A stretch of 21,448 bases of DNA from a virus: IMG/VR virus record IMGVR_UViG_3300005735_000009, positions 1-21,448 of that record. The stretch is one strand, 5' to 3'. Within the stretch, counting starts at the first letter, position 1, and each line of letters begins with the position of its first letter. This document shows, piece after piece, positions 16,193 to 20,764 of this stretch. The notes under the pieces were generated by a model. That model saw only the letters and a program-made list of their open reading frames with translations. It made no database searches and was not told the DNA's origin. A program made the translations under genes and the position numbers.

Positions 16193-16232
16193 TCTTAGAA
16201 GCTTTCCCTTCTTAGAGTCGCTTAATATTCCG

Positions 16233-16263
16233 TAAAGGTATAAACAAAAATCTTAAAAGTCAA
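16233..16263 (-). promoter_or_regulatory. Bacteroidota-type promoter for the 110-aa gene and downstream late genes
   Basis: On the minus strand TTG (16263-16261) is followed after 20 bases by TACCTTTA (16240-16233), matching the Bacteroidota sigma-A pattern TTG-N19/20-TAnnTTTG except for the last base. Transcription would start near 16226, about 100 bases before the next gene. The same nine-base word TACCTTTAC recurs 6 bases before the ATG of the 95-residue gene at 16585, where no -33 TTG is seen. Confidence 0.55.
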
Positions 16264-16297
16264 TAGTTTACCAACGCTTTAAGAGCAAAGGCTTAAG

Positions 16298-16585
16298 TTA
16301 CTGACCCCCAAGTAGTTGCGATATGGAATTCATAACAGAGCTCTCTCCAGCTTTAGTAGCAGACTCCTTAAAAAGGTTTTTCATTAGGCTTTTTGCTCCA
16401 GAAGATCCGATCTTGGCTAAAGCTTTTGGCCCAAGAAGGGCCTCAAGAAGCATGTCTGGACGCATCTCAGCAGCACCGTCGCCATAGTTGTTCTCTGGAC
16501 TGTAATCTATAGAGTCGCCCTTAAACCCGAAAACGTCTCCAGAGCTTATCTTGACAGGGTCTCCGTTATTCCTCAAAAGTTTCAT
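16298..16585 (-). CDS. Unknown protein (95 aa), first minus-strand gene at the divergent junction
   Basis: A 95-residue protein: MKLLRNNGDPVKISSGDVFG, FKGDSIDYSPENN, then a helical half (MLLEALLGPKALAKIGSSGA, KSLMKNLFKESATKAG) ending NSISQLLGGQ. It has no cysteines and no recognised motif. The helical, Ala/Leu/Lys-rich second half could contact membranes or other subunits. It lies at the left border of the structured divergent region and its message must start there or within it. Function unknown. Confidence 0.55.
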   Translation of the reverse strand: MKLLRNNGDPVKISSGDVFGFKGDSIDYSPENNYGDGAAEMRPDMLLEALLGPKALAKIGSSGAKSLMKNLFKESATKAGESSVMNSISQLLGGQ

Positions 16586-16639
16586 GGGGTAAAGGTAAAA
16601 AAACCGCAGTAATGTAGATCGTGGGGATTATATATACTT

Positions 16640-17074
16640 GTGGACGCTAGGTACGCAGTACCTAAACGGTTTTCCAGACCCCACCCCCCTACTATCTTCG
16701 ATAGTAGCCGCTATACTTTCAGCTTTCTACCTACTGACTATCAGTCAGTTAGGTAGGTTCACTTCTACCACTGCAGGAACCGCAGGCATTATGCAGCGCT
16801 GTTAAGCAGGGTGGGACAATCCCTCCCCAACTCTCCAATCGGCTTGACTTCACCCCGTTAAGGGGTGGCATTTCGAGGCTCTTCACGTTGCCTAACCTAC
16901 GGAGATAACTTGTTATCTCTCAGCGTGTTAGGGGCTGTTGACTCCACTACTACTACCAAGGTAGTAGGTAGTGAGAAGCTGGAAGGGTAGAGATGTAGTA
17001 TAAGAGAGAGAGGAGTCTACGACTCTCTCTTATACTACTATCTCCTAAAGGGTTTGAGAGTCAGCCCTTCGGAA
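16640..17074. other. Structured divergent intergenic region (array of inverted repeats)
   Basis: No convincing gene lies between 16,586 and 17,099. Instead a row of hairpins: TAGGTAC-gca-GTACCTA (16648-16664), CTACTATC-ttc-GATAGTAG (16689-16707), a 13-bp stem with one bulge (16727-16756), a G/C-rich imperfect repeat (16809-16829), CACCCC-gttaa-GGGGTG (16851-16867), nested CCTAAC(GAGATAAC-tt-GTTATCTC)GTTAGG (16891-16932), a 13-bp stem with one bulge (16945-16973), and the long header hairpin at 16995. It separates leftward late genes from rightward genes. It could be a structured RNA, a replication origin or a promoter region; the sequence alone does not decide. Confidence 0.7.
16995..17038 (+). 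repeat. Header hairpin 1 (16-bp perfect stem)
   Basis: GTAGTATAAGAGAGAG (16995-17010) is exactly complementary to 17023-17038, with a 12-base loop that holds the GAGTC-TAC-GACTC mini-hairpin. A GAGAT/ATCTC outer extension with one bulged base adds about five pairs. It stands about 60 bases before the first plus-strand gene. Compared with header hairpins 2-4 the purine and pyrimidine arms are swapped. There is no U-tract, so it is not a classical terminator. Confidence 0.8.
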
Positions 17075-17089
17075 TCAAACTTCAATTAA
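17075..17089 (+). promoter_or_regulatory. Operon leader word 1 (TCAAACTTCAATTAA)
   Basis: One of five copies of CAAACTTCAA(T) found upstream of the first gene of each plus-strand group, here ending 13 bases before the ATG at 17100 (counted from CAAT). There is no Shine-Dalgarno sequence. A 5'-untranslated translation or transcription-start signal is inferred from its position. Confidence 0.7.
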
Positions 17090-17099
17090 TTCATTTCCA

Positions 17100-17612
17100 A
17101 TGAATAGTTTCACTTTCAGTGACTGCAAGAAGGCAGTCAACCAAGCCACCTTCCGTCCAACCGCAGCCCGCAAAGCCGCCGCAACGAAGCTTCTGCAAGA
17201 AGCTTTGGACTTCATCTCTAACCTCGAAGAGGTTAAGGAGCCTTCGAAGAAGGCTAAGAAGACTCGTCGTAAGACGAGGAAGAAAGCAACCCCAACTCAA
17301 AGAGTTGCTGACAGTCAAGAAAAAGCCTTTCATGGAAAGGCTGACAGTCCAGTCAAGCCTTCGAAGAAGGCAAAGACAGCTTCAGTAGAAGCTGCTAAAG
17401 CATCTCTGAAAGAGATGGATGAGAAGAAAGCAATCAAGAAGTCAGCGAAGCTGAAGGCTAAAGCAGTGGCTTCAGGGGTCAACGAAGTTGACAGAGTAGC
17501 TTCCTTGGAAGCTAAGATTGAGGCTCTCACAGCCTGCCTTGCAGTGCACATGGAGTCTACGACTCTGGCTTCTCCTTCTAACGAAGTTAGCCTTGACGAA
17601 ATGCCCTTCTAA
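17100..17612 (+). CDS. Lys/Ala-rich H1-like basic protein with SSB-tail-like C-terminus (170 aa)
   Basis: A 170-residue protein. Residues 1-45 are a helical head (MNSFTFSDCKKAVNQATF, LLQEALDFISNLEEV). Residues 46-125 are a disordered, histone-H1-like stretch with repeated PSKKAK units (48-53 and 87-92) and KKTRRKTRKK. Residues 128-150 look like a short coiled coil (VDRVASLEAKIEALTACL). The protein ends VSLDEMPF, resembling the acidic-hydrophobic SSB C-terminal tip (DDDIPF; DDLPF in many Bacteroidota). No OB fold is seen. A role in coating or recruiting factors to nucleic acid is inferred. Its coding sequence is packed with perfect mini-hairpins. Confidence 0.65.
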   Translation: MNSFTFSDCKKAVNQATFRPTAARKAAATKLLQEALDFISNLEEVKEPSKKAKKTRRKTRKKATPTQRVADSQEKAFHGKADSPVKPSKKAKTASVEAAKASLKEMDEKKAIKKSAKLKAKAVASGVNEVDRVASLEAKIEALTACLAVHMESTTLASPSNEVSLDEMPF

Positions 17613-17626
17613 TCCTTTAGGATTAG
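17120..17626 (+). repeat. Array of perfect mini-hairpins inside the coding sequence
   Basis: Stems of 5-8 bp with 2-6 base loops at 17120-17139, 17187-17205, 17219-17235, 17239-17255, 17263-17278, 17293-17307, 17324-17342, 17357-17371, 17377-17394, 17401-17417, 17442-17454, 17478-17492, 17497-17514, 17553-17565, 17578-17590 and 17609-17626. The commonest loop is GAA closed by C-G (CGAAG). Random sequence would give roughly one such 6-bp hairpin per kilobase. The last one spans the stop codon. Confidence 0.85.
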
Positions 17627-17655
17627 TTTAACTGATAACCCTTAATTCATTGAAA

Positions 17656-17928
17656 ATGAACTACTTAGTTTCTGACCTTGATATCGAAGATATCAAACAC
17701 ATTGATGCCTCCTACCCACAGGACGCAACGCTCGACTCTGCGACCTTCAGCGAAGCTGTCTGCTTGCTTGACCACTTCGTTGATAACGAAGAGGATGGCC
17801 GAAAACTCGAAATGCTTTGGGACTTGCAAGGTCTGAAAGACCTCCTGCATGACGCAACAGCGGGCGCTGTGGAGATTACCATCTCCCGAAGCCTGCTTGC
17901 CCTTGGAAGCGGTTGCTCCATCGGCTAA
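17656..17928 (+). CDS. Small acidic unknown protein (90 aa)
   Basis: ATG at 17656 preferred over an in-frame TTG six bases earlier; a TTAATTCATTGAAA leader precedes it. The product is acidic: MNYLVSDLDIEDIKHIDASY, then FSEAVCLLDHFVDNEEDGRK, LEMLWDLQGLKDLLHDAT and a C-terminal AGAVEITISRSLLALGSG. Mostly helical, no recognised family. The mini-hairpin theme continues in it: TTGATATC-gaa-GATATCAA (17678-17696), TTCGTT/AACGAA (17776-17790), AGGTCT-gaa-AGACCT (17829-17843), ACAGCG/CGCTGT (17857-17870). It lies 43 bases after the Lys-rich gene and probably shares its message. Confidence 0.6.
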   Translation: MNYLVSDLDIEDIKHIDASYPQDATLDSATFSEAVCLLDHFVDNEEDGRKLEMLWDLQGLKDLLHDATAGAVEITISRSLLALGSGCSIG

Positions 17929-17944
17929 CCCTTTAGAGAGTTAC

Positions 17945-17985
17945 GTGTATATACTCTCTGAACAGAGTGAAGAGAGTATATACAC
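17945..17985 (+). repeat. Header hairpin 2 (15-bp perfect stem)
   Basis: GTGTATATACTCTCT and AGAGAGTATATACAC flank the loop GAACAGAGTGA. Flanks GAGAGTTA and TAACCTCTC extend the stem with one bulged base. The loop can pair differently (CTCT-gaac-AGAG), so two conformations are possible. The element is repeated at 19006 and 20725 and precedes the 46-residue gene. Confidence 0.85.
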
Positions 17986-18000
17986 TTAACCTCTCAATAA

Positions 18001-18014
18001 CAAACTTCAATTAA
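18001..18014 (+). promoter_or_regulatory. Operon leader word 2 (CAAACTTCAATTAA)
   Basis: The second copy of the leader word, 15 bases after header hairpin 2, with CAAT ending 15 bases before the ATG at 18027. Confidence 0.7.
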
Positions 18015-18026
18015 ACCCTTTCCGTT

Positions 18027-18167
18027 ATGGATATGAACCTACGCCATCAGCTTATTGCTGACCTCCTCGACCTTCACTTCTCCTTCGACGCAGTGCGTGC
18101 CACCGCTGAGTGGGACGAACTCACCTGCCTTGAGCAGATGACAATGGAAGACCTCATTGATATGTAA
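18027..18167 (+). CDS. Small acidic protein (46 aa)
   Basis: A 46-residue helical acidic protein, MDMNLRHQLIADLLDLHFSF followed by DAVRATAEWDELTCLEQMTM and EDLIDM. The leader word and header hairpin upstream define its start; a second ATG two codons later is possible. The stop codon lies in the loop of a perfect 8-bp hairpin, ATTGATATGTAATATCAAT (18156-18174). The family is unknown. Small acidic proteins in this phage block could be host-takeover or DNA-mimic proteins, but nothing shows this directly. Confidence 0.6.
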   Translation: MDMNLRHQLIADLLDLHFSFDAVRATAEWDELTCLEQMTMEDLIDM

Positions 18168-18175
18168 TATCAATC

Positions 18176-18236
18176 TTCAGGTACACTGAAGAGTCCTGAA
18201 TGGACGAAACACCCGTAACGGAGCCGTACCTCTGAA
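18176..18236 (+). ncRNA. Hammerhead-ribozyme-like motif (partial match)
   Basis: The order fits a type I hammerhead: stem I TTCAGGTAC (18176-18184), core CTGAAGA (18186-18192), stem II GTCC-tgaat-GGAC (18193-18205), core GAAA (18206-18209), then stem I return GTACC...TGAA (18226-18236, two-base bulge). The cleavage strand does not fit well: GCC instead of the usual GUC, and stem III (18209-18224) is weak with an A-C at the first pair. A competing hairpin CTTCAG-gtaca-CTGAAG uses the core. So this may be a degenerate ribozyme or a coincidence in a hairpin-rich area. Confidence 0.35.
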
Positions 18237-18346
18237 TACGTGCCCATCAGTGGTTTTGCCCTGACACTACTTTGTAGTGGAGCAGTAGGAGGATAAAAGA
18301 ACGACCCGCTTGTTGGTTCTGCCCAAGCGTTACGTGGTGTCTGTAT

Positions 18347-18360
18347 CAAACTTCAATTCA
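18347..18360 (+). promoter_or_regulatory. Operon leader word 3 (CAAACTTCAATTCA)
   Basis: The third copy of the leader word, with CAAT ending nine bases before the ATG at 18367. This group has no long header hairpin. The 199-base gap before the gene instead holds the hammerhead-like motif and CACTAC-ttt-GTAGTG (about 18265-18279). Confidence 0.65.
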
Positions 18361-18366
18361 TCTACG

Positions 18367-18735
18367 ATGACAACAATTTCTTTATACCACCTGCTCCAAA
18401 GCGGAGAGGGGTTCAGCGTCCGACCCGTCGGAATCGACAAGCTTCACACATACAACGGAGGCGGTTATGCAGTAGGCGGAGCGCAAGATTTCAAGCCCTT
18501 TGAAATCGACAACGAAAGCCTTTCTTTCATTCACTTTGAGAAAGTGATGAACGGCCTCGTATGCTCCGCACTCGATCGGGACACCCAGGTGATTGGGGGT
18601 TGGGTCGACGAAGGTCGAGTTTACATCGAACTCTCCGACATCGTTCAGTCCAAGTACGTAGCGGTTGAACTCGGGAAGGCTCGCAAGGAGAAGGCCATCT
18701 ACGATTTTGCTAACAGCAAATCCATCTACCTATGA
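18367..18735 (+). CDS. Unknown protein (122 aa)
   Basis: The start is set by the leader word; an in-frame TTG/GTG extension further upstream would run through that leader and is rejected. The product starts MTTISLYHLLQSGEGFSVRP, continues VGIDKLHTYNGGGYAVGGAQ, has an acidic-aromatic middle (DNESLSFIHFEKVMNG), and ends with a basic helix (AVELGKARKEKAIYDFANS). Alpha/beta, soluble, no recognised motif. It is followed by two further small genes, the first coupled by ATGA, forming a three-gene group. Confidence 0.65.
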   Translation: MTTISLYHLLQSGEGFSVRPVGIDKLHTYNGGGYAVGGAQDFKPFEIDNESLSFIHFEKVMNGLVCSALDRDTQVIGGWVDEGRVYIELSDIVQSKYVAVELGKARKEKAIYDFANSKSIYL

Positions 18736-18893
18736 ACGAATACCTTATGACGTACTATCGTGGCCATGACCGCGACGATTGGAGGGAGGAGAAATTCCTC
18801 GCCTACACCTTGGACCTTGCGCTCGAACACGCTGTGGACTGGTGTCCTGATGGGTGGACGGTCAAGAAAGTCGAACCAACTAACAATCAATGA
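18732..18893 (+). CDS. Small acidic Trp/Tyr-rich protein (53 aa)
   Basis: The ATG at 18732 overlaps the preceding stop by four bases (ATGA). The product is MNEYLMTYYRGHDRDDWREE followed by KFLAYTLDLALEHAVDWCPD and GWTVKKVEPTNNQ. Three tryptophans and tight coupling support a real gene. The 'Y..YY.G.....D...F.A.....A...A....P.GW.V..V' layout suggests a small alpha/beta fold. No family is recognised. Confidence 0.65.
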   Translation: MNEYLMTYYRGHDRDDWREEKFLAYTLDLALEHAVDWCPDGWTVKKVEPTNNQ

Positions 18894-18896
18894 GTT

Positions 18897-18992
18897 ATGG
18901 GTAAACGATTAAAGCAAAACTTGAACCTCCCGTTCCTTGCGTTCCTTGCATGGATGGGTGGGTTGTTGACTCTAGTTGCTCTGCTCAACTAA
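18897..18992 (+). CDS. Single-pass membrane micropeptide (31 aa)
   Basis: Starts three bases after the previous stop. The sequence has a basic N-terminus (MGKRLKQNLN) and one hydrophobic segment LPFLAFLAWMGGLLTLVALL (residues 11-30), ending at Asn. This is a classic one-helix inner-membrane peptide with the basic end expected in the cytoplasm. It could act on the host membrane or on a membrane protein; a holin-like role is possible, but it lies in the small-gene block, far from the endolysin. Confidence 0.6.
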   Translation: MGKRLKQNLNLPFLAFLAWMGGLLTLVALLN

Positions 18993-19005
18993 TATAGAGA
19001 GTTAC

Positions 19006-19046
19006 GTATATATACTCTCTGAACAGAGTGAAGAGAGTATATATAC
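19006..19046 (+). repeat. Header hairpin 3 (15-bp perfect stem)
   Basis: GTATATATACTCTCT and AGAGAGTATATATAC around the same loop GAACAGAGTGA as header hairpin 2. Two stem positions differ from copy 2 by paired changes (GTGTAT/ATACAC versus GTATAT/ATATAC), that is, compensatory substitution, evidence that the fold is maintained. The flanks AGAGAGTTAC and TTAACCTCTCA are also shared. Confidence 0.85.
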
Positions 19047-19062
19047 TTAACCTCTCATACTT

Positions 19063-19077
19063 CAAACTTCAAATCCA
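19063..19077 (+). promoter_or_regulatory. Operon leader word 4 (CAAACTTCAAATCCA)
   Basis: The fourth copy, slightly diverged after CAAACTTCAA, between header hairpin 3 and the ATG at 19084. Confidence 0.65.
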
Positions 19078-19083
19078 ATTTCA

Positions 19084-19308
19084 ATGGACAACTTCTTCAA
19101 ACGCCCCGTCGGTGCGGCGGTGCTCTACCTCAACGACTTCCACCACGGGAAGCGACTCAATGACCTCAATCGGTGCGCTCGGCTTGTGCCGAAGGACGTA
19201 AAGGGCATGGCCTCCATGCTGTCTGCCGCGAACACTGCGGAATCAGCGGGCTATGCCATTGACATCCTTGTTGGATGGGCTAACGATGCCGAAAACTCAG
19301 AAGCATGA
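19084..19308 (+). CDS. Unknown protein (74 aa), first gene of a six-gene coupled operon
   Basis: Starts after header hairpin 3 and leader word 4. The product is MDNFFKRPVGAAVLYLNDFH, then HGKRLNDLNRCARLVPKDVK, GMASMLSAANTAESAGYAID and an acidic end (ANDAENSEA). Mostly helical, soluble, no recognised family. The stop overlaps the next ATG (ATGA). It is followed by five further genes, all joined in the same way, which implies one message and translational coupling. Confidence 0.65.
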   Translation: MDNFFKRPVGAAVLYLNDFHHGKRLNDLNRCARLVPKDVKGMASMLSAANTAESAGYAIDILVGWANDAENSEA

Positions 19309-20717: not shown

Positions 20718-20724
20718 TATGTAT

Positions 20725-20764
20725 GTATATATCTCTCTGAACAGAGTGAAGAGAGTATATATAC
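20725..20764 (+). repeat. Header hairpin 4 (one-base deletion in the left arm)
   Basis: GTATATATCTCTCT (20725-20738), loop GAACAGAGTGA, right arm AGAGAGTATATATAC (20750-20764). It is the same element as 17945 and 19006, with one base missing in the left arm, so the stem has a single bulge. It precedes leader word 5. Confidence 0.8.

Follow-up and report, generated by a model that had tools for sequence, protein, structure and literature searches.

We analyzed a window of 21.4 kb, namely the whole stretch (21,448 nt) of the IMG/VR virus record IMGVR_UViG_3300005735_000009. Its PHROG family matches were terminase and portal, and in tblastn searches the nearest relatives of the terminase, at 41-50% identity, were an unclassified Manatee Spring phage, Maribacter phage Panino, and Flavobacterium elemoviruses; given these relatives, our initial idea of membership in Crassvirales was dropped. 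Host assignment via GTDB genomes was uninformative, returning a single MAG contig labelled Maricaulis. Leftward late genes occupy the window up to 16.6 kb, and small rightward genes follow from 17.1 kb. The rightward block is labelled as putative early by analogy, because the corresponding block of a near-complete relative (G003) encodes a primase-helicase and an exonuclease. A conserved GGGGATTATAYA motif (window 16620-16635) marks the edge of the noncoding junction that faces the late genes and was found in 40 of 56 relatives; its reverse complement contains TATAAT, and it may be a candidate late promoter.

On the rightward side, a Lys-rich ORF (17100-17612, plus strand) encodes a basic protein of 170 aa with no Pfam or PHROG match, for which 75 loci were found in IMG/VR. 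Structure prediction gave a helical model (mean pLDDT 72, pTM 0.27), with a helical N-terminal domain, a basic linker, and a C-terminal helix, and offered no functional clue. The next gene (17656-17928, plus strand) encodes 90 aa and belongs to no family.

An island of perfect mini-hairpins covers this locus (about 16640-18192). It begins at about 16640-16648 in the noncoding junction (16648-17039), fills the Lys-rich gene, thins across the next gene, and stops at about 18192, at the start of the following intergenic region. The junction holds mini-hairpins at 16648-16664, 16689-16707, 16733-16749, 16851-16867, 16902-16919, and 16950-16967, and the order of hairpins and unpaired motifs in it is the same in relatives. 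The Lys-rich gene start codon is itself contained in a hairpin, ATTCATT-tcc-AATGAAT (17089-17105), which is kept in the homologous contigs L001, L018, and L029. Within the gene, and written on the plus strand, there follow TGACTGC-aagaag-GCAGTCA (17120-17139), AAGCTTCT-gca-AGAAGCTT (17187-17205), TAACCTC-gaa-GAGGTTA (17219-17235; compensated in many relatives as CAACCTC/GAGGTTG, TGACCTC/GAGGTCA, or TAATCTC/GAGATTA), AGCCTTC-gaa-GAAGGCT (17239-17255), CTCGTC-gtaa-GACGAG (17263-17278; CTCGAC/GTCGAG in L001), CAACTC-aaa-GAGTTG (17293-17307; CAACCC/GGGTTG in L001), AGCCTTTC-atg-GAAAGGCT (17324-17342), GCCTTC-gaa-GAAGGC (17357-17371; GCCTTG-ttc-CAAGGC in L016), CAGCTTC-agta-GAAGCTG (17377-17394), CATCTCT-gaa-AGAGATG (17401-17417), GTCAAC-gaa-GTTGAC (17478-17492, encoding VNEVD; GTCAGT-gaa-ACTGAC, encoding VSETD, in L009 and L013), and TAGCTTC-cttg-GAAGCTA (17497-17514). 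As had been predicted, one hairpin, CTAATCC-ttta-GGATTAG (17609-17626), spans the stop codon of the Lys-rich gene. The plus-strand hairpin TTCATT-gaa-AATGAA (17646-17660) contains the start codon of the next gene, whose other hairpins lie at 17678-17696, 17775-17791, 17829-17843, and 17871-17886.

Longer intergenic hairpins, with 16-20 bp arms and 11-12 nt loops, flank the early genes at 16995-17038 (in the junction; 16-bp stem, 12-nt loop), 17940-17990 (20-nt arms, 95% complementary, 11-nt loop), and about 18995-19057 and 20724-20764, the last two being near-identical copies of the one at 17940-17990. In relatives, such hairpins occur just before the Lys-rich gene and in a following intergenic region, with stems that differ and are self-complementary. 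RNase III-type processing or terminator signals are possible. An Rfam search of 16200-19200 returned nothing above the gathering score and only sub-threshold matches, among them one to Hammerhead_1 (18.7 bits against a gathering score of 34) at 18180-18219, where the intergenic DNA is rich in hairpins; this match has a CTGAAGA...GAAA core and no convincing stems I/III by eye. An array of intrinsic terminators, that is, hairpins followed by a T-run on the transcribed strand, was not found; terminator-like sites are mostly on the minus strand and arise from Lys codons.

Counting perfect stems that do not overlap, are at least 6 bp long, and enclose loops of 3-6 nt, we found 12 in the Lys-rich ORF, compared with 1.37 +/- 1.14 (maximum 5) in codon-preserving shuffles (n=300). 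At a threshold of at least 5 bp there were 16, the very number of perfect inverted repeats that the original prediction had given for this gene, versus 3.2 in the shuffles (maximum 9, n=300). The more than tenfold excess claimed there holds as an excess and is smaller in size, about 9-fold over codon shuffles. Four more hairpins had been placed in the next gene; 4-5 stems were counted against about one expected, and its own excess is therefore modest. The predicted spacing of 20-35 bases describes most of the array, with gaps of 76 and 112 nt as exceptions, and the predicted limits of 17120-17870 within coding sequence proved too narrow, since noncoding DNA is included. The late genes of the window, suggested beforehand as a control alongside the shuffles, have hairpin counts at chance, and perfect stems of at least 6 bp amount to about 1.5/kb or fewer in the window outside the island.

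The island was also found in relatives. Each of the five near-complete relatives (G001-G005, 56-65 kb) carries a single island, about 2-3 kb long, at the same late/early junction, over a background of about 1-2 stems per kb outside it, and the size range across the family is 1.5-3 kb. The densest kilobase contains 20-25 stems in G001, G002, and G004, 18 in G003, and 8 in G005, where the island is weaker. The search in related phages proposed with the original prediction showed that homologues down to about 40% identity retain hairpins, with just 3-5 in the most distant; in the distant homologues L108 and L032, the few hairpins left are located at the same sites. An excess over codon shuffles was likewise seen in homologues and was strongest in the closer ones. 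Thus, codon shuffles do not give a similar count, and homologues with the protein keep the hairpins. In L029, an extra gene upstream of the Lys-rich gene (L029:9028-9570), the N-terminal part of which resembles that of the Lys-rich protein (AANQAINHP...NLEEV), has 16 stems versus 1.95 in shuffles (maximum 6). Since this additional gene is equally filled with hairpins, the trait belongs to the locus. The hairpin trait is a property of the locus, graded over the family, and its description as a saturated coding sequence was right and understated, given that it covers noncoding DNA and the extra L029 gene. No island was present in the scanned parts of Elemovirus, Panino, phi14:2, crAss001, and MW202828 (50 kb each for phi14:2, crAss001, and the elemovirus), and in two contigs reaching the early genes (L105 and L116), the stretch examined lacked both the Lys-rich gene and an island.

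Several side observations were made on these contigs. Contig ends fall within 1 kb of the Lys-rich gene in 10 of 34 cases versus 3.1 expected (terminase control: 5 versus 5.4), and 12 of the 17 contigs that are 48 kb or longer have ends clustered within 4.5 kb. Fixed genome termini at the island were rejected, as the exact positions of these ends vary and five contigs continue without a break; the scatter makes hairpin-related coverage loss, assembly breaks, or local sequence diversity likelier. L010 (9750 bp) consists entirely of a perfect 4875+4875 bp inverted repeat whose centre lies near the island, and it probably folded back on itself during amplification or assembly. This fold-back (L010/L159) was included in several counts and left out only of the count of 65 compensated pairs; its share of one sequence in 22 to 57 makes an effect on any conclusion unlikely. 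Moreover, a tRNA-like element of 45-47 nt lies 3' of the Lys-rich gene in distant relatives (L199:3347-3391, L203/L205:3439-3485, and L201:3809-3855). It has a covarying 7-bp acceptor stem (AAGCCAA/TTGGCTT, AACATAG/CTATGTT, AGCATAG/CTATGCT), a short GCAC-acag-GGTGC arm, and a T-arm (GGGGTTCGAATCCCC), lacks an anticodon arm, and received no call from ARAGORN. In form the element is close to a minimal substrate of RNase P, and it may signal mRNA processing.

The hairpins follow a sharp grammar. Stems are 6-9 bp long with a mode of 7 (7-bp stems: 56 versus 6.9 expected), the excess being absent at 4-5 bp and almost nothing being found above 9 bp. Loops are 2-4 nt with a mode of 3 and little or no excess at 5-10 nt; 3-nt loops numbered 72 versus 8.9 in the gene and 64 versus 2.2 in noncoding DNA. 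Across 57 non-redundant regions, perfect 7-bp stems with a 3-nt loop occurred 221 times, compared with 4-11 times for loops of 5-9 nt. In the same regions, 16 stems had one internal G-T (9-19 in the control) and 13 had one A-C (13-23). Perfect stems are thus enriched about 28-fold whereas G-T-containing stems are not, and single-mismatch stems are mildly enriched (96 versus 48-73). In noncoding DNA, the triloops TTC (27) and GAA (20) together make up 28% versus a background of 3.9%, and GNA or TNC triloops 44% versus 12.5%; the closing pair is pyrimidine-purine in 160 of 170 and C-G in 109 of 170. GNA triloops closed by C-G are therefore an enriched class and not every hairpin. DNA hairpins with GNA triloops, of the d(GCGAAGC) type, are known to be unusually stable (Hirao and colleagues; described in PMC4686876), and C-GAA-G triloops are the commonest loops of the island. 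The difference is that the former are known as a stable oligonucleotide motif rather than as a genomic array, and GAA in the island is a preference, not a rule. In sum, the element is a discrete, perfect Watson-Crick stem of 6-9 bp with a loop of 2-3(4) nt and 5'-pyrimidine/purine-3' closure, independent of sequence and arrayed.

A codon alignment of 22 homologues, with core sites defined in any single sequence and identical cores counted once, contained perfect 6-bp cores 103 times, versus 0-6 times when one (3') arm was slid by 1-6 columns. The distribution was bimodal, cores being either perfect or mostly lost. Whether stem changes are compensatory had been raised with the original prediction, and the answer is affirmative: among 31 close pairs, changed pairs in otherwise intact stems comprised 67 double Watson-Crick replacements, 15 other single mismatches, 3 non-pairing doubles, and 3 G-T versus 11 A-C, the last comparison resting on small numbers. 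Because the homologues share ancestry, such counts are not independent events. Of 65 compensated pairs in the codon alignment, 40 alter the amino acid on both arms, 20 on a single arm, and 5 on neither, so that 60 of 65 carry a change on at least one arm. This strongly supports the earlier claim that the protein code has been bent around the hairpins. The replacement of VNEVD by VSETD with GTCAACgaaGTTGAC becoming GTCAGTgaaACTGAC is a clear example. Hairpin order is retained over wide divergence. The structure is conserved and the stem sequence is not, and the structure overrides codon and even amino-acid choice.

These features bear on the molecule in which the hairpins act, for which both DNA and mRNA had been proposed. 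Under selection for RNA stems, G-U stems should also be enriched, and the lack of such enrichment points to DNA. We read the structure as DNA also on the grounds that pairing is strictly Watson-Crick, loops are tight, triloops of the GAA/TTC type occur on either strand, and stems contain a stop codon as well as the start codons of two genes. It is strongly suggested by these sequence patterns that the structure works in DNA and not in one mRNA.

Of the two proposed mechanisms, we therefore favor action in DNA: an array of DNA mini-hairpins at the early/late divergence, which would probably serve as an initiation platform for early transcription or replication (we put the probability at roughly one half). 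Divergent transcription would make the junction negatively supercoiled, or initiation would open it and leave it single-stranded. Tight loops and perfect stems would then allow many of the predicted hairpins to form there, and these would offer a platform, independent of sequence, on which early transcription or replication starts; it would be physically similar to the N4 promoter hairpins and yet arrayed. Single N4 promoter hairpins are known to extrude at physiological and even sub-physiological superhelical density (PMC4496689). No switch in GC skew was seen at the island; a replication origin inferred from skew was rejected, and an origin function gains no independent support. More generally, we tentatively suggest that dense DNA mini-hairpins selected for structure over coding genes may constitute a single-copy genomic organ, be it an initiation platform, a supercoil sink, or a single-stranded DNA scaffold. 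If so, no known system works via such an array, and the overlaid protein would evolve under the constraint of the hairpins. REP/BIME repeats are also arrays of short palindromes in prokaryotic DNA, with units that share sequence and are extragenic (PMC3733652); in contrast, the island stems vary, share no palindrome sequence, and are mostly genic. Text searches of one literature library returned no earlier phage report of such a hairpin array, which is not proof of absence.

The main rival to the reading as DNA hairpins is local template-switch conversion, in which the hairpins have no function and template switching or hairpin-templated repair perfects near-palindromes in a region that is often single-stranded. 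We consider it unlikely, even though stems that are either perfect or absent, arms that change together without intermediates, and amino acids that change on both arms are all as it would predict, and the same pattern prompted a proposal of repeat conversion in nematomorph mitochondrial genes (PMC6649704). There, too, perfect inverted repeats lie in translated genes with both arms coding, imperfect repeats are not in excess, and gains and losses occur between species. However, the nematomorph palindromes have arms of 15 bp or more, averaging 43 bp and reaching 142 bp, and are scattered over many genes (PMC6649704), whereas the phage stems of 6-9 bp with 2-4 nt loops form one dense island per genome, include noncoding DNA, and show a loop-sequence preference. 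Conversion does not readily account for the sharp limits on stem and loop size (4-5 bp stems are not in excess, and stems longer than 9 bp are nearly absent), for the preferred loop sequences and closing pairs, or for hairpin order being kept across wide divergence, and with no excess elsewhere in the genomes the process would need to be confined to one locus.

The leading idea of the original prediction, action in the mRNA, is in our judgment rather doubtful. In this reading, the hairpins would act in the early mRNA as a stem-loop armour protecting the transcript, by pacing ribosomes, or by binding a protein, possibly the Lys-rich product. The stems are also stable and foldable as RNA, the gene as RNA folds better than shuffles (z -4.4), the encoded protein is basic, and the coding part has loops of the GAA, GTAA, and CTTG types in sense orientation. 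The coding loops are strand-biased (GAA 36 versus TTC 9, together with GTAA and GAAA tetraloops), for which codon bias accounts in part, perhaps not wholly; we do not take this bias to prove action on the sense strand, given that loops in noncoding DNA show strand symmetry and that cGAAg is favored in codon shuffles, too. RNA foldability and sense-biased coding loops leave room for an mRNA role, against which stand the lack of enrichment of G-U-compatible stems and of G-U intermediates, the preference for 2-3 nt loops, the strand symmetry of noncoding loops, and the start codons of two genes and the stop codon within stems.

It is very improbable that the hairpins are N4-type promoters for a virion RNA polymerase entering with the DNA. 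In N4, a known polymerase reads three promoters that share conserved bases (PMC4496689), and these are also DNA hairpins near early genes, with a stem of about 5-7 bp and a 3-nt loop with a sheared G-A (PMC4496689). The island matches these dimensions (modes 7 and 3, beside the putative early block; about 7-bp stems and 3-nt loops with G-A). Moreover, a giant late protein of at least 2670 aa with a C-terminal LPD38 domain is encoded in relatives (G003 and L048:7-8019); most of its sequence has no known family, and it is polyvalent and probably injected, a type found in phages. By contrast, the island comprises dozens of hairpins, most in coding sequence, with unrelated stems and varied loops, and conserved stem and loop bases of the N4 kind are not shared among them. 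No T7/N4- or crAss-type polymerase motif appeared in a convincing context in four near-complete relatives, and no crAss- or N4-type virion RNA polymerase was recognized using PHROGs, Pfam, a weak motif scan, or a PDB sequence search covering half of one giant protein. Finally, chance, codon usage, or an assembly artefact, as the fold-back contig L010 might hint, was ruled out by codon shuffles that never reach the observed count, by agreement among homologues on independent contigs with the pattern inside conserved ORFs, and by the slid-arm alignment control.

The island represents an unusually clean natural case in which a structure, DNA-like by its pairing rules, dominates over protein sequence. 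With it, one can test whether arrays of short cruciforms or single-strand hairpins function in vivo and how a phage exploits hairpins at its transcriptional divide; were conversion the cause, the question would instead be whether mutation templated by hairpins can shape a gene. Other genomes can be searched with the same statistics (stem/loop spectrum, wobble test versus control loops, and strand symmetry). In this environmental phage family, the pattern points to preservation of DNA shape as such.
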